64,000 nucleotides of DNA from an uncultured Rhodospirillaceae bacterium. Lineage in GTDB: Bacteria > Pseudomonadota > Alphaproteobacteria > Reyranellales > Reyranellaceae. This document shows positions 8,415-37,719 of the stretch, in pieces. The notes below the pieces were generated by a model. It made no database searches and was not told the origin of the DNA. It saw nothing but the letters and a program-made list of their open reading frames with translations. Made by a program: the position numbers and the translations under genes. How positions within the stretch are numbered: the first letter of the stretch is position 1; every line of letters starts with the position of its first letter. The stretch spans positions 62,001 to 126,000 of the forward strand of contig CAMFGZ010000017.1 of assembly GCA_945952105.1 (NCBI GenBank). The letters are read 5' to 3'.

Positions 8415-8538
8415 GAACCAATCCTCCCGACGCCGATTTTAGGCACTGGGAGGGATGATCGGAAGCGTCCCTGATGGTTCGGGGACTGCAGGGCGAGACG
8501 CCACCGCAGTAAGAGTCATTCCATCGAAAAAAAGCTCC

Positions 8539-8692
8539 CTCACCTTGAGGAGCATGCCGCAGGCATGCGTCTCGAAGGGTGAGCACGCGCACCGTGTTTG
8601 CTATCCCTTCCTTCGAGATGGCCGATGCGTGGCCTCAGGACGAGGTTTGGCGGCTCAATTCGAGACGAGAGGACTCCTGCGGAGTCCTCTCG
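8539..8692. repeat. Dispersed palindromic repeat, paired inverted copies (family 1)
   Basis: The 289-bp gap between the acyl-CoA dehydrogenase and the cellulase holds no gene. A unit CTCACCTTGAGGAGC..GCGTCTCGAAGGGTGAG (8539-8583, with inner hairpin GCATGCC/GGCATGC) is followed by a degenerate inverted copy (about 8606-8645) and a perfect 12-bp stem with a 3-nt loop at 8666-8692. The same family recurs at 49372-49512. There is no T-run, so a terminator role is not evident. Confidence 0.75.
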
Positions 8693-8703
8693 ACCGTTCG
8701 ACC

Positions 8704-11700
8704 TCAGACATGCAGCAGGTCGATGTGCACCAGCGACGGATCCTGTGCGCCGGTCGCCACGAAACCGAAATTGGTGTCGGCGGCGTGGGCGATGGTCCCA
8801 TTGTAGGCGGCATTGCCGACCACGTAGCCGCTCGCATCGTGCGACACGATGACGGCGTTCCAGATGTCGGTGATCTGGTTGGTCGTCTCGATCTTGACCT
8901 GCCAGCCGTTGACGGCGCTGGCGCCGTCATTCTCCAGGGTCACGCTGCCGTTGAAGCCGCCCGACCAGGAATTGACGATGGCGAACATCGCCTCGAGGTC
9001 GCCCGAGTGCGACGGCTCGGTCGGCGTGGTGGGCGTGCTTGGCGTCGTGGGCGTCGTGGGCGTCGTGGGCGTCGTCGCGGCCGCCGTATCGTCGTCGACG
9101 ATGGTCCCGCTGCCGGTGGCGCGCGTGATCGTGGCGCCCACGGCGTTGCTGAGCACGACGCCGAAATGCTCGTTGCCCTCGACCAGCTTGTCCGGCGTGA
9201 TCTCGATCGTGATCGTCTTGCTCTGCTCGCCGGCCGCGAAGGTGACGTGGCCGTTGCTGGCGATGAAGTCCGCGGCGCCGGCCGTGCCGTAGACAGTCTG
9301 GTAGTCGACCGTCACCTCATGCGTCGCGGCCTCCGAGAGGGTGAGCACGAAGCTCGCCGTCGGGCCGCTGGTGCCGCCGCCGTCACCCGGCGCATCCTCA
9401 TGGAACTGGTATTCGATGGGCGTGAGATAGCCCATCTTGGTCTGGTTAACGGTGTTCCAGTTGTCGTTCAGGATGCCGCCGGTGTCGCCCGAGTTGGGGT
9501 TCCACGACCAGAAGGTCCAGCTCGGCCCTTTTTGGCCGGGCGCGAGGTCGGACGTGCCGTCATTGTTGAAGTCGCCGCCCAGGTAGGAGGTGATCGCCTT
9601 GAGCCACGGCGCATCCTTCGGGTCGACCAGCTTGGTGCCGAACTCGCCGATCCACACGGGGGCGATGCCTTCCTTGTAGATATAGCCCCACATCTGGTCG
9701 AACTTGGCGGGCAGGTTCGCGGGGAAGTCGGCGCCCTGGAACCACGACTGCGGATAAACCGAGTTGGGATAGTCGTGCGCGGAGTAGACCAGCTTGTCGT
9801 CGAGCGCGAGGTCGATGGGCCGGTCGCGCACGCCCATCAGGTTGCCGCCCCACCAGTAGCTCTGGCCCTTGTAGGTGCCGACGCCCTCGACGAAGATCAG
9901 CCAGTTGGGATTGACCGTGCCGATGGCATTGCCGGCCGTCTCCGCCGCCAGCGCCCAGTCGTTGGCGCCGCCACCGCCCCACGTGCCGTTGTACGGCTCG
10001 TTGTGCAGGTCCGCGCCGATCACCGACTGGTCGTCGGCGTAGCGTGCCGCCAGCATCTTCCAGTCATTGATCCAGGCGGCTTGCGTGTATTGGCTGTTGT
10101 ACCAGAGGCCGTTGTCGGACGTACCGGCGCCGGCGTTGCTGCGGTGATGGTCCAGGATGATCTTGAGGCCGATCTGGTCGGCATAGTCGACGATCTTGTC
10201 CATGACCTGCAGCGCCGACAGGCCCTGCAGGTCGGGGTTCTTGCTGAAGTCGATGCCGTTCGGCGCGGCGGTCGTGTGCAGCATCTCGCTGGAGAAGGGC
10301 AGGCGGATCGTGTTGAAGCCCAGATCCACCATCTGGTCCATCATGTCCTTGTAGCCGCGCGTCCACAGGCCGTGCGGCGCGAAGTTCGACGATTCGAAGC
10401 CGAACCAGTTCACGCCCGCGATCTGCACCGAATGTCCCGCCGAGTCGACGATCTGGTTGCCCGAGGTGCTGAGCCATCCGGGCGCCGCCCCGCCACCGGG
10501 ATTGCCCTCGATCACCGTCGCGTCCGAGATGCTGAGCGTCGGCCCTGCCGCCACATCATCGTTGACGATCGTGCCGATGCCGATCGCGTCGGCGATGGTG
10601 GCCCCGGTCGGGCTGGACAGCACGACGCTGAAACCTTCGTTGGCCTCGACCACGGCATCGCCGATCGTCGCGACTGTAATGGTCTTCTGGGTCTCGCCGG
10701 CCGCGAAGGTGAGTGTGCCGGACTGGGCGACATAGTCGCTGCCCGCCACGGCGGTGCCGTCGGCGGTCGCGAAGTGTACCGTAACGGGCGTCGTCGAGGT
10801 CGCGGACAAGCTGACGGTGAAGGTGGTGTGTCCCGGCGCCGCCGCGCTGCCTTCCGCCGACGAGACGTCGTTGATCGAGAGAGAGGGCAGGGTCGTGGCG
10901 CTGTCGTCGTTGATGATGGTGCCCAGCGCGCTGCCGTCCTTGATCGTGGCGCCGGCCGGCGAGGAGAGCAGAAGTTTCAGCGTCTCGTTGGCTTCGACCG
11001 CCGTGTCGCCCGTCACCTGGACGCGGACGACCTTGGAGGTCTCGCCGGCCGCGAAGGTGAGCACGCCGCTCTGGGCTATGTAGTCCTGGCCGGCCTTGGC
11101 CGTGCCGTTGGCGGTGGTGTAGGCGACAGTGACCGGGCCGGAGGCCGCCGTCGACAGCGAGACGGTGAAGGCGAGCTCGCTGGTGCCGCTGTTGCCTTCG
11201 GTCACAGAGGCGTCGGCGACCGAGATCGTCGCATCGTCGTTCACGATGGTGCCAATGGCGCTGCGGTCCACGAGCTTGCCGCCGGTCGGCGCCGACAGGT
11301 TGACCTTCAGCGTCTCGTTGCCTTCGATCGTCGTGTCACCGGTGACCTTGACGTTGATGACCTTGGAGGTTTCGCCGGCTGCGAAGGTGATCGTGCCGGT
11401 CTGTGCGATGTAGTCCTGGCCCGCCTTGGCCGTGCCGTCGGCGGTGGTGTAGGCCACCGTGACCGGACCGCTGGTGGCTTCGGAGAGAGCGACGATGAAA
11501 GAGAGGTCGCGCGTGCCGCCGTCGCCTTCCTTCACCGAGGCATCGGCGATGCTGATGTTCGGCACGATGGCGTCGTCGGTGAGGATCGTGCCGGTCGCGG
11601 CGCCGCGGGCGATGGTGGCACCGTTCGGTGTCGACAGGTTCAGCTTCAAGGTCTCATCGAGTTCCGCAACCTTGTCGCCGTTGACGGCGATGCTGATCGT

Positions 11701-12222
11701 CTTCTGCGTTTCGCCGGCGGCGAAGGTGATGGTGCCGGACTTCGCGACATAGTCCGAGCCCGCCGTGGCGGTGCCGTTGGCCGTGGAGTAGGCGACCGTT
11801 ACCGGCCCGGTCGCGGCCTTGGACAGGCTGACCGTGAAGTTTATCTGTGTGGTGCCGCTGTTGCCTTCGATGACCGAGGCGTCGCCGACCGAGATCGTCG
11901 GCAGCGCCGGCGGCGGCTCCTCGCCTGCACCGTTCAGCGCCAGGCCGGTCGTCGTCGTGCCGCCCGAGGCGCCCGGAGTCGCCTGGAAGCCGAAGGTGAC
12001 GCTCCCGCCCGACGAGACGTCGCCGTTGTAGGAGGCGTTGCGCAGGACGTAGTGGGTGCCGACGCGGCTCACGATCTCGGCACCCCAGATGTTCGTGATG
12101 GTGTAACCGGCGTCGAACTCGACGGTCCAGCCATGGAGGCTGCCCGCGCCGGCATCGACGGTCATGTTGCCGATGAAGCCGGAACCCCAGTTGTCCTTGA
12201 CGGTGTACCTGACCGTAGCCAT
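8704..12222 (-). CDS. Multidomain GH5 cellulase with CBM2 and Calx-beta domains
   Basis: A 1172-aa extracellular glycoside hydrolase. Order: CBM2-like domain (1-82), four Calx-beta domains (about 108-217, 222-330, 332-440, 447-556), the first strand of a fifth Calx-beta (562-574), a GH5 catalytic domain (about 580-945), the rest of that Calx-beta (about 953-1045), a Thr/Pro linker (1050-1070) and a C-terminal CBM2-like domain (about 1075-1155). The GH5 acid/base is Glu742 (DLHNEP) and the nucleophile Glu860 (WIGEFG). There is no signal peptide. The end, SLVHIDLLHV, has the Asp-plus-hydrophobic character seen in some type I secretion substrates. GGAGGAAAG precedes the start. It is divergent from a LytS/LytTR pair. 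Beta-glucan cleavage is certain only at family level. Confidence 0.95.
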   Translation of the reverse strand: MATVRYTVKDNWGSGFIGNMTVDAGAGSLHGWTVEFDAGYTITNIWGAEIVSRVGTHYVLRNASYNGDVSSGGSVTFGFQATPGASGGTTTTGLALNGAGEEPPPALPTISVGDASVIEGNSGTTQINFTVSLSKAATGPVTVAYSTANGTATAGSDYVAKSGTITFAAGETQKTISIAVNGDKVAELDETLKLNLSTPNGATIARGAATGTILTDDAIVPNISIADASVKEGDGGTRDLSFIVALSEATSGPVTVAYTTADGTAKAGQDYIAQTGTITFAAGETSKVINVKVTGDTTIEGNETLKVNLSAPTGGKLVDRSAIGTIVNDDATISVADASVTEGNSGTSELAFTVSLSTAASGPVTVAYTTANGTAKAGQDYIAQSGVLTFAAGETSKVVRVQVTGDTAVEANETLKLLLSSPAGATIKDGSALGTIINDDSATTLPSLSINDVSSAEGSAAAPGHTTFTVSLSATSTTPVTVHFATADGTAVAGSDYVAQSGTLTFAAGETQKTITVATIGDAVVEANEGFSVVLSSPTGATIADAIGIGTIVNDDVAAGPTLSISDATVIEGNPGGGAAPGWLSTSGNQIVDSAGHSVQIAGVNWFGFESSNFAPHGLWTRGYKDMMDQMVDLGFNTIRLPFSSEMLHTTAAPNGIDFSKNPDLQGLSALQVMDKIVDYADQIGLKIILDHHRSNAGAGTSDNGLWYNSQYTQAAWINDWKMLAARYADDQSVIGADLHNEPYNGTWGGGGANDWALAAETAGNAIGTVNPNWLIFVEGVGTYKGQSYWWGGNLMGVRDRPIDLALDDKLVYSAHDYPNSVYPQSWFQGADFPANLPAKFDQMWGYIYKEGIAPVWIGEFGTKLVDPKDAPWLKAITSYLGGDFNNDGTSDLAPGQKGPSWTFWSWNPNSGDTGGILNDNWNTVNQTKMGYLTPIEYQFHEDAPGDGGGTSGPTASFVLTLSEAATHEVTVDYQTVYGTAGAADFIASNGHVTFAAGEQSKTITIEITPDKLVEGNEHFGVVLSNAVGATITRATGSGTIVDDDTAAATTPTTPTTPTTPSTPTTPTEPSHSGDLEAMFAIVNSWSGGFNGSVTLENDGASAVNGWQVKIETTNQITDIWNAVIVSHDASGYVVGNAAYNGTIAHAADTNFGFVATGAQDPSLVHIDLLHV
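9013..9075. repeat. Short tandem repeat encoding Thr/Pro linker
   Basis: Near-perfect 9-12 bp tandem units (GTGGGCGTC) encode a T-T-P repeat linker (residues about 1050-1070 of the GH5 protein), joining the split Calx-beta domain to the C-terminal CBM2. Such repeats change length easily by slippage. Confidence 0.85.
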
Positions 12223-12384
12223 CGCTTTCCTCCGCTCGGTTTCCGCGTATCGCGTGTGGGACCAGATGCCATCGATATCGGGGCGTTACATCGGCAGCCG
12301 CCGGGCTAGTCGATGAACCCGGCAGGAAAGTCGGCGAACGGGGCCTTGCGGGCGTGGCAGGCAATGCTTGCCTGACTTCGTCAA

Positions 12385-13521
12385 ATGCCCAATCCTTCGC
12401 GGGAATTCAGCCGTCCCGCCCGGAGCCCATCGATCTTGTCCGCACTTCTGCTTGCCCGGTGGAACGGCCTGTCCATGTTCTGGCGAGCCCAGATCGCGGG
12501 CTGGGGGCTCTTTGCGATCGCCGACATGCTGGCGCAGCGCGTCGCTTATCACAGCTATGCCATCGCCTTCGCGCGGACCGGCGTGATCCTCGCCTGCCTC
12601 GTCGCGATCTCGACGGCGATGCGCCGCGTCTACGTCACGCGGCGCTTCGCCCATCGCGTCTCGATCGGCGGCGTGGCGACGATCGCGCTGCTCTCGCTGC
12701 TGGGAGCGCTCGTCGTCGCGAGCATGATCGTTCTGGTCCATGAGGCACTGCCCTGGATCGTGCCGCCCGACCGTCGCGGCGTCGAAGAGTTTTTCGTTCC
12801 ATTCGTGCATTACTTCTTTGCCCTTGCGGGGTGGAGCCTCGCCTATTTCTGGCTGCGCGCGGAGATGGCGGAGCAGGCCCAGCACCGCCGGACCATGCGC
12901 GCCGAGGCCGATGCACTGAGAGCCGAACTGGAGCAGCTTCGCCTGCAACTGGATCCGCATTTCCTGTTCAATGCCCTGAACGGTGTCGCCGAGGAGATTC
13001 CCGAGCATCCGACGGCGGCATTAGACATGCTTCGCAACCTGACTGCCTACCTGCGGCACTCGCTCGACGGCATCAATCACACGGTTGTCACGGTTGAGGG
13101 CGAAGTGACGGGGCTCGCGGCCTATCTCGCCGTCCAGAAGGCGCGCTTCGGCGAGCGACTGCAGGCACGGCTGGACGTGACGCCCGAGGCCCGGCGTCGC
13201 CGCATTGCGAGCTTCCTGCTCCAGCCGCTCGTCGAGAATGCCGTGAAGCACGGGCGCCGTGAGCAGGGGCTCGACCTGCGCGTCTGCATCCGTGGCGACG
13301 GCGAGTGGCTTCATGTCGAAGTGTCGAATGCCGGCACGCTTGCCTCCACGGGGGCCACCCGCCGTCAGCGTCCGGGTATCGGGGTGGAGAACGTGCGCCG
13401 GCGGCTCGCGCTGCACTATCCCGGACGACACGCTTTCGAACTGCGCGAAGCGGGCGAACGGCCTGAAGGGAAGACGGTGGTCGCAACCCTTGAGCTGAAA
13501 GGCGAGCCGTGCGGGTCCTGA
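12385..13521 (+). CDS. LytS/YpdA-type sensor histidine kinase
   Basis: Membrane-bound kinase of the His_kinase (LytS/AlgZ) family, 378 aa. Four hydrophobic helices (about 34-160), then a coiled coil (QAQHRRTMRAEADALRAELE) and the family motif LRLQLDPHFLFNALN, whose His in DPHFLFN is the phospho-acceptor. The ATP-binding domain has FLLQPLVENAVKHG and GIGVENVRRRL. The stop overlaps the GTG of the response regulator by 13 bp, indicating translational coupling. No Shine-Dalgarno precedes 12385, so the ATG at 12475 (MFWRAQIAGWG) may be the true start. It is divergent from the GH5 gene with a 162-bp gap. Confidence 0.93.
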   Translation: MPNPSREFSRPARSPSILSALLLARWNGLSMFWRAQIAGWGLFAIADMLAQRVAYHSYAIAFARTGVILACLVAISTAMRRVYVTRRFAHRVSIGGVATIALLSLLGALVVASMIVLVHEALPWIVPPDRRGVEEFFVPFVHYFFALAGWSLAYFWLRAEMAEQAQHRRTMRAEADALRAELEQLRLQLDPHFLFNALNGVAEEIPEHPTAALDMLRNLTAYLRHSLDGINHTVVTVEGEVTGLAAYLAVQKARFGERLQARLDVTPEARRRRIASFLLQPLVENAVKHGRREQGLDLRVCIRGDGEWLHVEVSNAGTLASTGATRRQRPGIGVENVRRRLALHYPGRHAFELREAGERPEGKTVVATLELKGEPCGS

Positions 13522-14225
13522 TCGTCGACGACGAGCCGTTGGCCCGCGGCGCCATTCGGCGATTGCTCGCGTCGTTCGCTCATGTGGAGATCGTGGGCGA
13601 GGCGGATAGCGCCGAAACGGCGCGCGCGCGCGTCGCGAACCTGCAGCCCGACCTGATCTTCTTGGACATCGAACTGGGCGGCGGCAGCGACGGGTTCGAT
13701 CTGATCGAGTCGCTGGAACGGCCGCCCATCGTGATCTTCGTCACGGCCTTCGCCGAGCACGCGGTCGAAGCCTTTGCCGTGAACGCGGTCGACTATCTGC
13801 TGAAGCCGGTCGAACCGGCCCGCCTGGAGGCGGCGCTGGCCCGTGCCTCCCGCCAGCTCGCCCTCGCCGCGCTGCCGCCCGGGCCGGGCGTGATCGAACT
13901 CAGGACTCCGCGGCGGACGCTGTTCGCCACACCGGCGGAAATCGTGGCGATCTCCGCCGACGGTGATTTCACCCGGGTGTTCGTGGCTGGCCAGTCCGCG
14001 ATGATGATCCTGCGCACCCTCGGGCATTTCGAGGAACTGCTGCCGACACCGCCCTTCGTGCGTCTGGGCCGGTCGGTGCTGATCAACCGCGACCGGTTGC
14101 GCGGCCTCGAAGCGCCTACGCGCTCGACCGGCCGCCTCATGCTCGACGGCATGGCCCATCCGCTGACGATCGGCCGGGCCGCGACGGCAAGGCTGCGCGA
14201 AATCCTCGCCTCCGACAAAGCCTGA
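13509..14225 (+). CDS. LytTR-family response regulator
   Basis: Response regulator of 238 aa beginning at a GTG (13509) inside the kinase gene. The receiver domain has RVLIVDDEPLARGAIRRLL, phospho-acceptor in LIFLDIELGGGSDGF, and the output-face lysine in VDYLLKPVEPARLEAAL. The C-terminal LytTR DNA-binding domain includes EIVAISADGDFTRVFVAG, PPFVRLGRSVLINRDRLRGLE and GMAHPLTIGRAATARLRE. It forms a two-gene operon with the LytS-type kinase. LytTR proteins often control export, polysaccharide or adhesion genes, so the divergent GH5 gene is a plausible target, but no operator was identified. Confidence 0.95.
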   Translation: MRVLIVDDEPLARGAIRRLLASFAHVEIVGEADSAETARARVANLQPDLIFLDIELGGGSDGFDLIESLERPPIVIFVTAFAEHAVEAFAVNAVDYLLKPVEPARLEAALARASRQLALAALPPGPGVIELRTPRRTLFATPAEIVAISADGDFTRVFVAGQSAMMILRTLGHFEELLPTPPFVRLGRSVLINRDRLRGLEAPTRSTGRLMLDGMAHPLTIGRAATARLREILASDKA

Positions 14226-27826: not shown

Positions 27827-29017
27827 CTAGATGAACTGCCGGATCGCCGCGATCACTACCAGGGCGCCGATTGCCATGACGGCGCTGCCGAGCGAGATCA
27901 CGTAGAGCGCGCGGCCGGGCGAGAGGCGGCCCATATGGGCGGCGATCCAGAAGAACGGATCGTTGACGTGGCAGATCGCCATCGAGCCGGCGCCGACGGC
28001 GGCCGCGGCGATGGCGCGGCCCGAGGCGCTGTCGAGGCCGAGCGCCGGCAGCATCGGCTCGACCATGCCCGAGGCGGTCAGCACGGCCGTGAGGGAGTTG
28101 CCCTGCATCGTCTTCACGATGGCGGCCGCCAGGAACGGCGTCAGCACGCCGTACCGCGGATGCAGCGCATATTCGGCCAGAAGCTCCGACATGCCGGTCT
28201 CGTCGAAGACGCGGGCGAGTCCGCCCGATGCACCGACCGCCAGCAGAAGCGGCGCCCAGGAGCGGCCGGCCAGCGCCGAGGGCTCCCAGCGTCGCGCGAA
28301 CACGACGGCCAGCGTGATGGCGATGGCGGTCAGCATCAGCGGCTTGGAGACGCCGATATAGAATTCGCGCGAGCCGCCCTTGCCGAGCGGCTCGCTCGGC
28401 ATCTGCGCGATCGATTGCAGCACGAGAAGCCCAAGCGGAATGCCGACGCAAAGCCAGGCCCAGGAAAGTTGCCCGTCGGTTGGCTGCGACGGCACCTGTC
28501 GCGCCACATGCCACCAGCCCAGCGCCACGGCGATGGCGGCGACCGGAATGGCGATCATGAACTCGGTGCTGATCTTGGCCTTCATCACCGACGCCGCCGC
28601 GACGGCGAGTGGCGAGGGGGCGAGCAGGGCTGCCACCGCGAGCAGGGTGAGGGCGAGACCCAGCGCACGCCGCGGGGCGTCCTGCCCGGCCGGTTGCAGC
28701 AAGGCGAGGCCGCCTGAGGCCGAGCCGCCGAGGCCTGCCACGAAGCCGGCCGCGGCCGACGTGCCGGTGCCGAGCGGCGCGCGCAACACCAGGGCACTCA
28801 CAAGAGCGCCGGCGACGACCAGCAGGCCCGTCTGTTCCAGCGCCGTCGTGAAACCGAGCCCGAACGCCTTGCCGACCGACTGGAAGGTCATGTCGGCAGC
28901 GATGCCGTAGACGACGACGGTGGCCATGATCGCCAGGAAAGCCGGCAGGCGCACGCGCTGGACCAGGAAGACGATGGCGGCGACGGCGATCGGCAGCAGG
29001 AGGGAGGCGAGAATCAT
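27827..29017 (-). CDS. GntP-family permease (gluconate:H+ symporter type)
   Basis: Integral membrane transporter of 396 aa with about 12 helices. GntP hallmarks are near the C-terminal half: AAIVKTMQGNSLTAVLTASGMVEPML and GAGSMAICHVNDPFFWIAAHMG (substrate-binding N-D-x-F-W motif). It is shorter than E. coli GntP (about 440 aa) and lacks the canonical N-terminal block, so it is a divergent member. Likely substrates are sugar acids or short hydroxy acids. Divergent from the GH5 gene across only 37 bp. Confidence 0.9.
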   Translation of the reverse strand: MILASLLLPIAVAAIVFLVQRVRLPAFLAIMATVVVYGIAADMTFQSVGKAFGLGFTTALEQTGLLVVAGALVSALVLRAPLGTGTSAAAGFVAGLGGSASGGLALLQPAGQDAPRRALGLALTLLAVAALLAPSPLAVAAASVMKAKISTEFMIAIPVAAIAVALGWWHVARQVPSQPTDGQLSWAWLCVGIPLGLLVLQSIAQMPSEPLGKGGSREFYIGVSKPLMLTAIAITLAVVFARRWEPSALAGRSWAPLLLAVGASGGLARVFDETGMSELLAEYALHPRYGVLTPFLAAAIVKTMQGNSLTAVLTASGMVEPMLPALGLDSASGRAIAAAAVGAGSMAICHVNDPFFWIAAHMGRLSPGRALYVISLGSAVMAIGALVVIAAIRQFI

Positions 29018-29054
29018 GACGGGACGAACCTTAATGGCCTGCTACAGTCCCGTC

Positions 29055-30245
29055 ATGCGCCTCCTCGTCGCCCTCCTGCTGCTGCTCGGTCTTGTCGCGC
29101 CCGCCGCGCAGGCGGAAGCATTGGTCCGCATAGAGGGCAAGAACTTCATCGAGCCCGATGGCCGCATCCTGCGCCTCAAGGGAATCAGCCTCGGCAACTG
29201 GCTGATGCCCGAAGGATACATGTTCAAGTTCGAGGTCGCTAAGTCGCCTCGCCAGATCTACGACGCGTTCGACCGCCTGCTGGGCCCGGAACGCGCCGCC
29301 GATTTCTGGCGCCGCTATCGCGACACCTACGTCACCGAGGAGGATATCCGCTTCATCAAGTCGGTCGGCTTCAACATGGTGCGCGTGCCGCTGCACTGGC
29401 GGCTGTTCATGGGCGCCGACGGCGAGATCGGCGGCGAGGGCTGGGCGCTGCTCGACCGGGTGGTGGGCTGGGCCGCCGCCGCCGGGCTCTACGTGATTCC
29501 CGACCTGCATGCGGCACCCGGCGGCCAGACCGGCATCAACCACGATGACGGGCCGGGCTATCCGCTGATGTTCTACGTGGCGCGCGACCGCGATCTCACG
29601 GTGAGGCTCTGGCGCGCGGTGGCCCAGCGCTATCGCGGCAACCCGGCGATCCTGGGCTACGACATCCTGAACGAGCCGATTGCGCCCTATCACGACGTGG
29701 CGACGCTCAACGCACGGCTGGAGCCCTTCTACAAGCGCGCGACGGCGGCGATCCGCGACGTCGATCCCGAGCGCATCGTCATCCTGGCCGGTGGGCAGTG
29801 GAGCTCGAGCTTCGCGATGTTCGGCCCGCCCTTCGCGCGGAATCTGGCCTACACCTATCATTCGTTCTGGGCGTCGACGAAGCGCGACTCGATCCAGCGG
29901 CACCTGAACTTCGCCAACCTCCACGACGTGCCGCTGTTCCTCGGCGAGACCGGCGAGCTGACCGACGAATGGAACGAACGCTTCCGCCGGCTGCACGAGA
30001 TGCACGACATCGGCTGGTCGTTCTGGACCTACAAGAACCTCGACACGCCATCGACCATCGTCTCGATCACGCGGCCCGACGGCTGGAAGGAGATCGTGTC
30101 CTATGCCGACGGCGCGACGAAGGAGAAGCCGTCGGCGGAGCTGATCGATCGCGCCGTGGCGCAATACCTAGAGGCGATCCGGTTCAGGAACGGCACGGTG
30201 CGCTGGAGCTACCTCGCATCGCTCGGACTGAAGAGCGCTCCCTAG
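29055..30245 (+). CDS. Secreted GH5-family glycoside hydrolase
   Basis: Periplasmic or secreted glycoside hydrolase of 396 aa. The signal peptide starts at the ATG at 29055 (MRLLVALLLLLGLVAPAAQA, cut before EAL). The TIM barrel shows RLKGISLGNWLMPEGY, the catalytic acid/base in YDILNEP and the nucleophile in FLGETGEL, as in GH5. It resembles exo-beta-glucanase-like GH5 members (NWLMPEGYMF). It is divergent from the GntP permease and convergent with a GT2 gene. Together with the large GH5 protein at 8704, the strain has two beta-glucan-acting enzymes of different export type. Confidence 0.93.
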   Translation: MRLLVALLLLLGLVAPAAQAEALVRIEGKNFIEPDGRILRLKGISLGNWLMPEGYMFKFEVAKSPRQIYDAFDRLLGPERAADFWRRYRDTYVTEEDIRFIKSVGFNMVRVPLHWRLFMGADGEIGGEGWALLDRVVGWAAAAGLYVIPDLHAAPGGQTGINHDDGPGYPLMFYVARDRDLTVRLWRAVAQRYRGNPAILGYDILNEPIAPYHDVATLNARLEPFYKRATAAIRDVDPERIVILAGGQWSSSFAMFGPPFARNLAYTYHSFWASTKRDSIQRHLNFANLHDVPLFLGETGELTDEWNERFRRLHEMHDIGWSFWTYKNLDTPSTIVSITRPDGWKEIVSYADGATKEKPSAELIDRAVAQYLEAIRFRNGTVRWSYLASLGLKSAP

Positions 30246-31593: not shown

Positions 31594-33417
31594 ATGGCGC
31601 AGGCCCCTTCTCCTGCCGGATCGCCACGCACCGAGCTGGCGGAAACGCTAAGGTCTTGCCGCTCCTCCTACCTGGGCGTCGCGGTTTTTACAGCCGTCCT
31701 GAACGTCCTGTATCTGACCGGCTCCTTCTTCATGCTGCAGGTTTATGACCGGGTGCTGCCGAGCCGCAGCGTGCCGACGCTGGTTGCCCTGTGCGTCCTG
31801 GCGCTCGGACTCTACGGGTTCCAGGCGGTCCTGGACATCGTCCGCAACCGGGTCCTGATCCGGATCGCCGGCGGGTTCAGCGAGGCGCTGGACCGCCGAA
31901 TTTACCATCTGCTTGTCAAGCTGCCGCTGCGAGCCCCGCAGATGAACGGCTTCGAGCCGGTCCGCGACCTCGATGCCATCCGGACGTTCATGTCCGGCGG
32001 CGGCCCTCCGGCCCTGTTCGACCTGCCCTGGATGCCGCTCTATCTCGGCATTTGCTACCTGTTCCATCCGTTGATCGGCCTGACGGCGACGGTCGGCGCG
32101 CTGATCCTGGTCGCGATCACTTTCATGACCGAGGTCAAGGTTCGCCAGCCGTCGATCGAGGTGTCGTCGCTCTCCAGCAGGCGAAACGGTCTGGCCGAGG
32201 CAAGCCGGCGCAATTCAGAGGTACTGCACGCGATGGGCATGGTCGGCCGGTTCGCCCATCAGTGGGCGGATTACGGCCGTCGCTACGTGAGCGCGCACCA
32301 GCGGGCCGGCGACATCACCGGCGGCATGGGCAGTTTTTCCCGGGCGCTGCGCATGGCGCTGCAGTCGGCGGTGCTGGCCGTGGGTGCCTATCTCGTGATC
32401 AAGCAGCAGGCGACGGCGGGCATCATCATCGCCGGCTCCATCCTGTCGGCCCGCGCCCTGGCGCCGGTGGAGCAGGTGATCGCCCAGTGGCGCGTCTTCG
32501 TCGCGGCCCGCCAGAGCTGGCACCGGCTGAACAACCTCTTGGCGCGCATCCCCGAGGACAAGGAGGTCATGGCGCTGCCGAAGCCCAAGGCCGTCCTGTC
32601 GGTCGAGGCCGTCAGCGTTGCGCCGCCGGGCGTCAATGTGCTGGTTGCGCGCGACATCGTCTTCTCGCTGAAGGCTGGACAGGGGCTGGGCATCATCGGC
32701 CCCAGTGCCTCGGGCAAGTCCTCGCTCGCGCGCACGCTGGTTGGGGTGTGGCGGCCGGTGACGGGCAAGGTCCGGATCGACGGCGCCACGCTCGACCAGT
32801 GGTCGTCGGAGTCGCTCGGCGAGCATATCGGCTATCTGCCGCAGGACATGGAGCTGTTCGCGGGCACGGTCGCGCAGAACATCGCGCGCCTGGAGCCGGA
32901 ACCGGACTCCAAGAAGGTGATCGCGGCCGCCCAGGCCGCCGGCGTGCACGAGATGATCCTCGGCCTGCCCAACGGTTACGAAACCGAGATGGGCGAGAGC
33001 GGCACCGCCTTGTCGACCGGACAGCGCCAGCGCGTCGGACTGGCGCGCGCGCTCTATGGCGATCCCTTCCTCGTCGTGCTCGACGAGCCCAATTCCAGTC
33101 TCGACCATGACGGCGAGGAGGCGTTGACCAAGGCCATCATGTCGGTGCGGGCGCGCGGCGGCATTGCCATTGTGATCGCGCATCGGCCGAGCGCGCTGGC
33201 GGCGGTCGACCAGCTCCTGGTCATGCGGGGCGGCCGGCAGCAGGCCTTCGGACCCAAGGACGCCGTCCTGCGCGAGACGCTCAAGGCCGCGGCGCCGCCC
33301 GGCACTCCCGGCGCGCCGGGGGCGCCAGCCGTACCACCCGGCGCGGTTGCGCCGACCCCCCTGCGTGCCACGATGGGGCCCGTGGGCCCAATGGCCCGAA
33401 CCCGGGAGCCGTCATGA
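31594..33417 (+). CDS. Type I secretion ABC transporter (PrtD/HlyB-like)
   Basis: Inner-membrane export ATPase with permease and nucleotide-binding domain in one chain, 607 aa. Membrane part about 25-320 with RSYLG-like start and DAIRTFMSGGGPPALFDLPWMPLYL. NBD: Walker A IIGPSASGKSSLAR (about residue 369), Q-loop LPQDMELFAGTV, signature LSTGQRQRVGLARAL (canonical LSGGQ altered to LSTGQ), Walker B FLVVLDEPNSSLDHDG and H-loop VIAHRPSAL. It lacks the C39 peptidase-like domain, as PrtD does. The C-terminal 40 residues are Pro/Gly/Ala-rich. It overlaps the HlyD adaptor gene by ATGA. The outer-membrane TolC partner is not in the window. Confidence 0.96.
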   Translation: MAQAPSPAGSPRTELAETLRSCRSSYLGVAVFTAVLNVLYLTGSFFMLQVYDRVLPSRSVPTLVALCVLALGLYGFQAVLDIVRNRVLIRIAGGFSEALDRRIYHLLVKLPLRAPQMNGFEPVRDLDAIRTFMSGGGPPALFDLPWMPLYLGICYLFHPLIGLTATVGALILVAITFMTEVKVRQPSIEVSSLSSRRNGLAEASRRNSEVLHAMGMVGRFAHQWADYGRRYVSAHQRAGDITGGMGSFSRALRMALQSAVLAVGAYLVIKQQATAGIIIAGSILSARALAPVEQVIAQWRVFVAARQSWHRLNNLLARIPEDKEVMALPKPKAVLSVEAVSVAPPGVNVLVARDIVFSLKAGQGLGIIGPSASGKSSLARTLVGVWRPVTGKVRIDGATLDQWSSESLGEHIGYLPQDMELFAGTVAQNIARLEPEPDSKKVIAAAQAAGVHEMILGLPNGYETEMGESGTALSTGQRQRVGLARALYGDPFLVVLDEPNSSLDHDGEEALTKAIMSVRARGGIAIVIAHRPSALAAVDQLLVMRGGRQQAFGPKDAVLRETLKAAAPPGTPGAPGAPAVPPGAVAPTPLRATMGPVGPMARTREPS

Positions 33418-34718
33418 AGCACGCCGTCTCCATCCCGGCGCGGACGCGCCGTCCTCTCGTGATCGGCATGGCCGCCTGCTTCGTCCTCGTCTTCGGCGTC
33501 GGGGGATGGGCGGCGACGACCCAGCTGTCCGGCGCGGTGATCGCGCCCGGCAAGCTCGTCGTCGACACCAACGTCAAGAAGATCCAGCACCCGACCGGCG
33601 GCGTCGTAGGCGAGTTGCTCGTCAAGGAAGGCGACAAGGTCAAGCAGGGCGACGTGGTCGTCCGGCTCGACGGCACGCAGGCCCGATCCAATCTCGGCAT
33701 CGTCACCAAGGCGCTGGAGGAGCTGGCGGCCCGCCAGGCCCGCTTCGAGGCCGAGCGCGACAACGACAGGACCGTCGAATTTCCGCCCGAGCTGACGTCG
33801 CGTGCGAGCGATCCCGAAGTCGCGCGCCTGATGACGGGCGAGCAGAAGCTGTTCGAGATGCGCCGCACGGCCCGCGATGGCCAGAAGGCGCAGCTGCGCG
33901 AGCAGATCCAGCAGCTCAACCTGCAGATCGATGGAATTCAGGCCCAGGAAGTCGCCAAGGGCAAGGAACTGAAGCTGCTCGCCCAGGAGCTCGAGGGCGT
34001 TCGCACGCTCTGGAAGCAGAACCTCGTGCCGATCAGCAGGGTCACGACGCTGGAACGCGATTCTGCACGCATGGAGGGCGAGCGCTCGTCTCTCGTGGCG
34101 TCTCTGGCGCAGAATCGCGGCCGCATCGCCGAGCTCGAACTGAAGATCCACCAGATCGACCAGGACCTCAGCACCGAGGTCGGCAAGGAGCTGGCCGAGA
34201 TCCGCGCCAAGAAGTCCGAGATGACCGAGCGGCGCATCTCGGCCGACGACCAGCTCAAGCGCATCGATCTCGTGTCGCCGCAGGACGGCAAGGTGTTCCA
34301 GCGCAACGTCCACACGGTGGGCGGTGTCGTCCAGGCGGGCGAGCCGCTCATGCTGATCGTGCCCGACTCCGATTCGCTGATCGTCGACGCCAAGGTCGCG
34401 CCGCAGGACATCGACCAGATCCACATCGGCCAGCATGCGGTCCTGCGCTTCGCCGCCTTCAACCAGCGCACGACGCCCGAGGTGAACGGCGAGGTGATCC
34501 ACATCGGCGCCGACGTCAGCCAGGACGACAAGGCGACCGAGCCCTATTACTCCGTGCGCATCCGCGTCTCCGAGGGCGAACTCGCCCGGCTGGAGGGCCT
34601 GCAGCTGCTGGCCGGAATGCCGGTCGAGGCATTCATCCAGACCACGCCGCGCACCGTAGCCTCGTTCCTGGTGAAGCCGCTCTCCGATCAGATCGCGCGG
34701 GCGTTCCGCGGGCGTTGA
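33414..34718 (+). CDS. HlyD-family type I secretion periplasmic adaptor
   Basis: Membrane-fusion protein of 434 aa: one N-terminal TM helix (about 17-36, LVIGMAACFVLVFGVGGWAA), lipoyl-like domain (GAVIAPGKLVVDTNVKKIQHPTGGVVGELLVKEGDKVKQGDVVVRLDG in pieces), long coiled coils (about 90-285), then a beta-barrel (DLVSPQDGKVFQRNVHT, MLIVPDSDSLIVDAKVAPQDIDQIHIGQHAVLRF). It bridges the ABC transporter to a TolC-like channel. Its ATG overlaps the ABC stop. The ABC/HlyD pair is the only secretion apparatus seen here. Confidence 0.96.
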   Translation: MKHAVSIPARTRRPLVIGMAACFVLVFGVGGWAATTQLSGAVIAPGKLVVDTNVKKIQHPTGGVVGELLVKEGDKVKQGDVVVRLDGTQARSNLGIVTKALEELAARQARFEAERDNDRTVEFPPELTSRASDPEVARLMTGEQKLFEMRRTARDGQKAQLREQIQQLNLQIDGIQAQEVAKGKELKLLAQELEGVRTLWKQNLVPISRVTTLERDSARMEGERSSLVASLAQNRGRIAELELKIHQIDQDLSTEVGKELAEIRAKKSEMTERRISADDQLKRIDLVSPQDGKVFQRNVHTVGGVVQAGEPLMLIVPDSDSLIVDAKVAPQDIDQIHIGQHAVLRFAAFNQRTTPEVNGEVIHIGADVSQDDKATEPYYSVRIRVSEGELARLEGLQLLAGMPVEAFIQTTPRTVASFLVKPLSDQIARAFRGR

Positions 34719-36921: not shown

Positions 36922-37719
36922 ATGATCTCCCGTAGAAGCATGCTGGCGGGCAGCCTTGCCCTGCCGGCGCTGGCCGGCTGCGGCGGCCAGCCGACGTCCC
37001 AATCGTCGGCCTATGCGCCGAACCAGACGCGGCCCGGCCTCGATGCCGTGATCGACATCAGCCACAACGTCACCGTCACCAGCTTCGCCGCGGTCCGGCG
37101 CAGCAACATCCTGGCCGTCATCCATAAAGTGACCGAGGGCGGCGACTGGTTCGATCCGTCCTATGCGTCGCGGCGGCGCCAGGCCGAAGCGGCCGGCCTG
37201 CTCTGGGGAGGCTATCATTTCGGGACGCGCCAGTATTCGGGCGAGCAGCAGGCGGCCTCGTTCCTGTCGGCCTGCCAGCCCGGCCCGCAGACCGTGATGG
37301 CGCTCGATCTCGAACCCAACGACGCCAACCCGCGCAACACGATGCGGCTCGACCAGGCCGAAGCCTTCGTCCGCGCGGTGCAGAAGGCTACGGGCCGGCT
37401 GCCGATGCTCTACGCCCATCCCGCCTGGGCGAACGGCGAAGTCTACGGCCGCAAGCGGCTTCGGCTCGACGCCGCCGTGCTGCCGGGCTCGCTCCTGTCG
37501 CGCTGCGATCTGTGGCTGGCCGACTATCGCGAGGAGCCTCGGCTGCCCAACGCCTGGTCGAAGTGGACGCTCTGGCAGTACGTCGCCGACGAGACGGCCC
37601 AGAACTTCGCCTACGGCAGCGAGCCGCGCCATGTCGAGGGCGTCGGCCACTGCGACCGCAACATGTACAACGGCGACGCCGCCAGCCTGACCCGCTGGTG
37701 GAAGAACGGCGGGCGGTAG
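36922..37719 (+). CDS. GH25 family lysozyme, lipoprotein
   Basis: Predicted lipoprotein of 265 aa with a twin-Arg N-terminus and lipobox (RRSMLAGSLALPALAGC). The GH25 fold shows VIDISHNVTVTSFAAVR, ILAVIHKVTEGGDWFDPSYASR, GLLWGGYHFGTRQ and the catalytic D-x-E in TVMALDLEPNDANPRNTM, with LPMLYAHPAWAN and WSKWTLWQYVADE (W-Q-Y). It cleaves peptidoglycan (muramidase). It lies 13 bp after the secreted beta-barrel gene and may share its transcript. A dispersed repeat begins at its stop codon. Confidence 0.93.
   Translation: MISRRSMLAGSLALPALAGCGGQPTSQSSAYAPNQTRPGLDAVIDISHNVTVTSFAAVRRSNILAVIHKVTEGGDWFDPSYASRRRQAEAAGLLWGGYHFGTRQYSGEQQAASFLSACQPGPQTVMALDLEPNDANPRNTMRLDQAEAFVRAVQKATGRLPMLYAHPAWANGEVYGRKRLRLDAAVLPGSLLSRCDLWLADYREEPRLPNAWSKWTLWQYVADETAQNFAYGSEPRHVEGVGHCDRNMYNGDAASLTRWWKNGGR

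Follow-up and report, generated by a model that had tools for sequence, protein, structure and literature searches.

How is the catalytic domain of a cellulase attached to a rod of Calx-beta repeats, as one more module in the row or inside one of the repeats? The question is raised by a gene in a 64,000-nucleotide stretch of DNA from an uncultured Rhodospirillaceae bacterium (GenBank assembly GCA_945952105.1, contig CAMFGZ010000017.1, positions 62,001 to 126,000), hereafter called the window, to which coordinates refer. This gene (8704..12222, minus strand, as for all its parts) encodes 1172 residues with no internal stop, in the order CBM2, four Calx-beta copies, a composite unit of strand A, GH5 and strands B to G, and CBM2. 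Pfam profiles recognize two CBM2 stretches, five Calx-beta stretches and one GH5 in the product, and a profile search of the whole assembly returned no Calx-beta match beyond these five. The reading that we favour, at a probability of roughly 0.7, is that of a secreted endoglucanase whose GH5 barrel is inserted, as a guest, into the A-B loop of a host Calx-beta domain, with the added proposal that Ca2+ would close this host and tether the enzyme.

The fifth Calx-beta copy and its GH5 guest

The four intact Calx-beta copies (10552..11898, residues 109-557; Pfam Calx-beta and an in-house profile) start at residues 109, 223, 332 and 448, and each scores 167-184 bits over positions 1-109 of the in-house profile. 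The stretch that follows GH5 (9088..9375, residues 950-1045) matches profile positions 9-109 only, with 87 bits within the full protein and 94.3 bits alone, and reaches 54.4 bits against Pfam Calx-beta (PF03160; cut-off 27) over profile positions 28-98. As the initial annotation had it, this domain continues after the enzyme and ends in GTIVDDD; it resumes at about residue 950, reads SFVLTLSEAATHEVTVDYQT from 957 and has its GTIVDDD at 1039-1045. The same annotation placed the beginning of the fifth copy before GH5, in the manner of copies 1-4, and this is borne out by the segment LSISDATVIEGN (10501..10536, residues 563-574), which we designate strand A. With residues 558-575 spliced in front of it, the post-GH5 half scores 107.1 instead of 94.3 bits and is matched from position 1, above all 1000 control splices (maximum 96.4 bits for 500 GH5 segments and 98.1 for 500 shuffled segments); a splice with the full linkers retained gives 91.5 bits, as what the strand adds is outweighed by the penalty for the linkers. 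In addition, a strand-A weight matrix built from 189 intact copies assigns 31.3 to the segment of this gene, whereas none of 1654 windows taken from within GH5 domains exceeds -0.1. The break was said to fall where the other repeats read GNSGT, which holds for copies 1 and 3 but not for copy 2 (GDGGT) or copy 4 (GSAAAPG).

What lies within this break is a complete enzyme domain (9406..10482, residues about 581-939). It scores 170.8 bits against GH5 (PF00150; curated cut-off 23.5), with a Pfam core at 599-911 and an extent of 581-939 taken from solved homologues. Sequence matches in the PDB include 8fc0 (E 2e-176, query 563-939) and Acidothermus E1 (1ece, E 2e-120), the latter being the nearest classical structure for the catalytic domain. 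A structure comparison matches it to 8fc0 with Z 53.6 and a root-mean-square deviation of 1.5 Å over 363 residues, as a (beta/alpha)8 barrel; since GH5 takes up all the Foldseek and VIA-align rows, these are uninformative on the Calx-beta half. Both catalytic glutamates, E742 and E860 of the NEP and GEFG motifs, are kept in 65/65 rows, and the solved homologues point to a predicted endo-beta-1,4-glucanase activity. The domain is flanked by an entry linker, PGGGAA (10483..10500, residues 575-580; low predicted local distance difference test, pLDDT, at model residues 19-24), whose position is also Gly/Pro-rich in relatives, and by an exit linker, FHEDAPGDGG (9376..9405, residues 940-949; pLDDT <50 at model residues 381-396). 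Of note, the window holds a second GH5-family protein (28920-30245, plus strand; Cellulase PF00150, 104 bits) with a weak endoglycoceramidase resemblance, encoded just upstream of the type I secretion genes described below.

A structure model had been proposed as the check on the pairing of 562-574 with 953-1045, and AlphaFold2 was run on residues 557-1050, using an alignment with 64 relatives. The resulting model (mean pLDDT 82.8) has strands at 562-565 and 568-571 (block pLDDT 80 and 69), and strands B to G at 399-486 of its own numbering. When everything after 945 is removed, the pLDDT of residues 557-568 drops to less than 50 and no strand is left there, while GH5 is still predicted well, and the partner of strand A must therefore sit in the post-GH5 half. 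This contrast between predictions with and without the second half, rather than any set of coordinates, supports a predicted pairing of strand A with that half. Strand A could instead form an extra edge strand of the preceding copy 4, given that few linker residues separate the copies and that the modelled fragment excluded copy 4. Nonetheless, strand A becomes ordered in the absence of copy 4 as soon as the post-GH5 half is present, and it is kept in members that have no preceding Calx-beta, which leaves pairing with copy 4 the least credible of the alternatives that we considered.

Profile and model thus both place strand A and strands B to G in one Calx-beta fold, which is kept across the family. 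The architecture is that of a domain insertion, in which a complete guest fold splits the sequence of the host, whose own fold is restored in three dimensions. The enzyme is accordingly nested as first annotated, with entry and exit in one loop, a view on which the splice test, the AlphaFold2 contrast and the conservation across the family converge.

Spread and evolution of the nested arrangement

The source genome is Reyranella-like: its nearest relatives that have a name belong to this genus, with 81-86% identity over the best segment, and R. aquatilis has a GH5 domain 98% identical to the one described here. A first set of relatives was searched with the whole protein and is therefore biased toward full architectures. 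In almost all relatives with a Calx-beta directly downstream of GH5, strand-A segments directly upstream of it score about 10 to 34; the exceptions are L072 in the first set and L075 in a later one. The survey of other GH5 proteins that the initial annotation had called for was carried out with a GH5-only query across the Reyranella order, in which 29/29 scored loci are nested (L201, which lacks the anchor motif, was left unscored). Close GH5 homologues (E < 1e-90) occur in 35/76 genomes of this order, as counted from the rows, and a GH5 search of a phylum sample found no close homologue outside the source genome. Nested members were found in Azorhizobium, Methylobacterium, Microvirga, Roseomonas, Skermanella, Mycobacterium, a Gemmataceae bacterium and on Azospirillum plasmids, so that the arrangement spans several alphaproteobacterial families, the Mycobacteriaceae and the Planctomycetota. 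In Reyranella soli (L016, open reading frame from 4968), the frame stops inside GH5, as if this copy of the nested gene were disrupted or misassembled.

These relatives also bear on tandem linkage, in which LSISDATVIEGN would be a truncated-repeat leftover or a linker, and the domain after GH5 a separate Calx-beta devoid of strand A. Pfam alone indeed gives a shortened Calx-beta after GH5 (profile 28-98), the order given in published domain lists is GH5 - Calx-beta (PMC3245306), and a true tandem of Calx-beta and GH5 does exist, in L084 and L085, where it looks different from the nested form. Against this, strand A is retained where no Calx-beta precedes GH5: L074 keeps ISIADASKLEGD, and Azospirillum lipoferum L094, which has other N-terminal modules and no other Calx-beta, keeps LSVSDVSVAEPT, and strand A is therefore not a mere leftover of a repeat array. 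Together with an Asp in 61/65 and a Glu in 64/64 rows, and with the ordering of strand A by AlphaFold2 only alongside the second half, this makes tandem linkage very improbable for the present gene, and nesting is retained as the topology of the family.

On the GH5 tree, the nested state extends from a group of Planctomycetota and unnamed bacteria to Actinomycetota and most alphaproteobacterial rows, with scattered non-nested rows; one row labelled non-nested, L016, is the broken frame mentioned above and not a truly non-nested protein. A single origin of nesting is not established, as the tree requires 13 state changes, at least 10 of which are forced by supported branches. Apparent recent losses or exchanges of nesting are seen in Microvirga and Roseomonas. 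In four Microvirga species, the nested and the stand-alone GH5 of the same genome are sisters (L047/L077, L053/L078, L052/L081 and L046/L080), the stand-alone copies being RTX-tailed where complete; this sister pairing suggests that the GH5 module was exchanged or converted between architectures in this genus.

Other enzymes in the same loop were suspected from gaps of 230-265 residues between Reyranella Calx-beta matches, and these candidates were rejected, the post-gap copies being complete or not lacking strand A as expected. No other enzyme nested in this way was found among the Reyranella gap loci and further phylum-wide Calx-beta loci, which form a sample and not a census. In Reyranella L126 (646-879) and L129 (602-835; protein coordinates), a module of about 235 residues lies between two complete Calx-beta copies and is not nested. 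L127 (801-857) and L130 (810-866; protein coordinates) each have a Calx-beta half matching profile positions 53-108 only, after a gap of about 100 residues, possibly a small insertion in another loop.

Calcium ligands, export route and a possible clamp

Calx-beta domains bind Ca2+ through ligands located in their AB, CD and EF loops (PMC9820601). In NCX, these ligands are E385, D447, I449, E451 and D498-500, and the structure of CBD1 is lost without Ca2+ (PMC3386913). Upon alignment to NCX1, the NCX ligands map to E572 before the insertion and to D985, D1011, E1015, E1018 and D1043-1045 after it. E572, on strand A, was matched to NCX1 E385 by eye through the motif that both proteins have, the database alignments beginning only downstream of strand A, and is Glu in 64/64 rows with a residue at this place. 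The five single positions are conserved in 64/64, 65/65, 64/65, 64/65 and 64/65 rows, while for the Asp triplet the counts are 45/65 at the first position and 58/65 and 60/65 at the D499 and D500 equivalents. The predicted ligands of the fifth copy, in the AB, CD and EF loops and in the C-terminal Asp triplet, are thus present and conserved, save for the D446 equivalent. As the A-B loop bears a ligand, entry and exit of the enzyme would lie at the Ca2+ pole of the host, and the lack of structure in Ca2+-free CBD1 implies that the host would be open in the Ca2+-poor cytosol.

How would such a protein leave the cell? No Sec-type signal peptide is visible by eye at its N-terminus, MATVRYTVKDNW, where the N-terminal CBM2 begins (11926..12219, residues 2-99; Pfam CBM_2 E 1.5e-29), nor in the other alphaproteobacterial members. 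The C-terminal CBM2 (8704..9009, from about residue 1072; second CBM_2 stretch, PDB match 6f7e at query 1072-1159) ends in IDLLHV, similar to the C-termini of type I secretion substrates; the two CBM2 stretches total 102.8 bits against PF00553 (cut-off 24). Many relatives end in a short hydrophobic run after an acidic residue, and L070 and L077-L080 carry RTX-like tails. Moreover, about 19 kb from the cellulase gene, overlapping genes (31594..34718, plus strand) encode a candidate exporter, a PrtD-type ATP-binding cassette (ABC) transporter and an HlyD adaptor (TIGR01842, 726.7 bits, cut-off 510; TIGR01843, 399.4 bits, cut-off 209). Because of the missing signal, the C-terminal runs, the RTX-like tails of relatives and the presence of this pair in the window, type I export of this putative substrate is likely. 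Downstream of the type I secretion genes lies a GH25 lysozyme-like gene (36922-37719, plus strand, 93 bits).

From these elements, we propose that in Alphaproteobacteria type I secretion would export the chain, which would still be unfolded in the Ca2+-poor cytosol, and that the host would lock on meeting external Ca2+. Binding of Ca2+ by ligands from both sides of the insertion would close the host around its guest, and the two ends of the enzyme would be held together at a single pole, organised by Ca2+, of the Calx-beta rod, which has a CBM2 at either end. A two-point tether would thereby replace a single floppy linker. A full Ca2+-gated clamp, in which external Ca2+ would switch an export-competent chain into a fixed, oriented catalytic head, and in which the A-B loop would be an unrecognised natural site for enzyme display, is a tentative and rather unlikely extension of this proposal.

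Several observations weigh against the favoured reading. Strand pairing and Ca2+ geometry are indirect, no atomic coordinates having been inspected, and the NCX D446 equivalent is not kept, P, G, A or S being found instead. The pLDDT is low in both linkers, and the predicted template-modelling score is 0.72 for the nested unit versus 0.89 when the half domain is left out; there is therefore no support for a fixed orientation of host and guest, and the tether may be flexible. Mycobacterial members start with a hydrophobic segment that is Sec-like; nesting therefore goes with more than one export route, and type I secretion is not its general reason. Finally, GH5-RTX paralogues of Microvirga and some Roseomonas proteins, all close relatives, are without nesting, which GH5 therefore does not need. 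A rival account is a nesting that is real but functionally neutral, an old insertion in a permissive loop whose clean removal is hard, with neither a Ca2+ clamp nor an effect on orientation. The flexible linkers on either side of GH5 and the interchange of nested and non-nested GH5 on the tree, including the Microvirga sister paralogues, speak for neutrality, as does the activity of the related endoglucanase CelE2 on Avicel, reportedly higher once its Calx-beta is deleted; the near invariance across phyla of Ca2+ ligands on both sides, and the retention of the arrangement by every scored relative in the Reyranella order, speak against it, but a conserved host fold would by itself be enough to account for both. 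We regard neutral nesting as a serious contender, short of even odds, and keep the Ca2+-closed, tethered guest as the preferred reading.

Two further features adjoin the gene. A 1284-residue open frame runs antisense to all of it (8455-12309, plus strand) and is probably a by-product of high G+C content. Divergently, about 160 bp away, a LytS-like histidine kinase and a LytTR response regulator are encoded (12385-14225, plus strand), a possible regulator.

Known systems and the meaning of nesting

Calx-beta is among the domains found with glycoside hydrolases (PMC6626019), and domain insertions occur in 20% of multidomain proteins (PMC13114784). Azospirillum cellulases with GH5 and CalX-beta were termed a 'unique domain architecture' in 2011 (PMC3245306) and published as a linear order, whereas nesting is scored here for L094, L174 and L175 of the plasmid genes, and weakly for L096, its strand A being degenerate; L094 and L096 have other N-terminal modules and no further Calx-beta. 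NCX1 CBD1 and Drosophila CALX belong to the same domain family as the host, and their Ca2+ ligands map across; in contrast, they are cytosolic regulatory domains with no enzyme in the A-B loop, and D446 is not kept in the cellulase. Nesting is also known from a GH5 with a carbohydrate-binding module inserted in its catalytic domain (PMC9063844), but with the reverse topology, the catalytic domain being the host. No published description of a GH5 nested in Calx-beta was found in the open-access literature, subscription papers lying mostly outside this search. The combination of GH5 and Calx-beta is already known as a domain list, and within this search its nested topology is undescribed.

The closest case is CelE2, a metagenome-derived GH5 endoglucanase (PDB 8fc0; Pimentel et al., 2023, Enzyme Microb. 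Technol. 165:110206, cited in PMC12120621), which shares the same GH5 and, by the title of its paper, a Calx-beta. Its crystal construct starts with a strand A, LSISDASATEPGSGG. The modelled chain of 8fc0 (364 residues) begins at residue 18, the first 17 residues, which hold strand A, being absent, so that the strand A of CelE2, cut from its partner, is unseen in the crystal. A host offering no partner for strand A would explain these missing 17 residues. The CelE2 study is said to have treated the protein as an N-terminal GH5 and a C-terminal Calx-beta, with the isolated Calx-beta reportedly unfolded and the activity on Avicel reportedly increased after its deletion. A nested host predicts that the isolated Calx-beta fragment is unfolded, because this fragment lacks strand A.

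Nesting thus turns a domain list into a specific and widely conserved topology, found in dozens of species of several phyla, and changes how such enzymes should be cut for expression, as constructs starting at GH5 or at the post-GH5 Calx-beta would deprive the host of strand A and of one Ca2+ ligand. The A-B loop of a Calx-beta domain accommodates about 360 guest residues and is thus a candidate site for the display of an enzyme on a rod.
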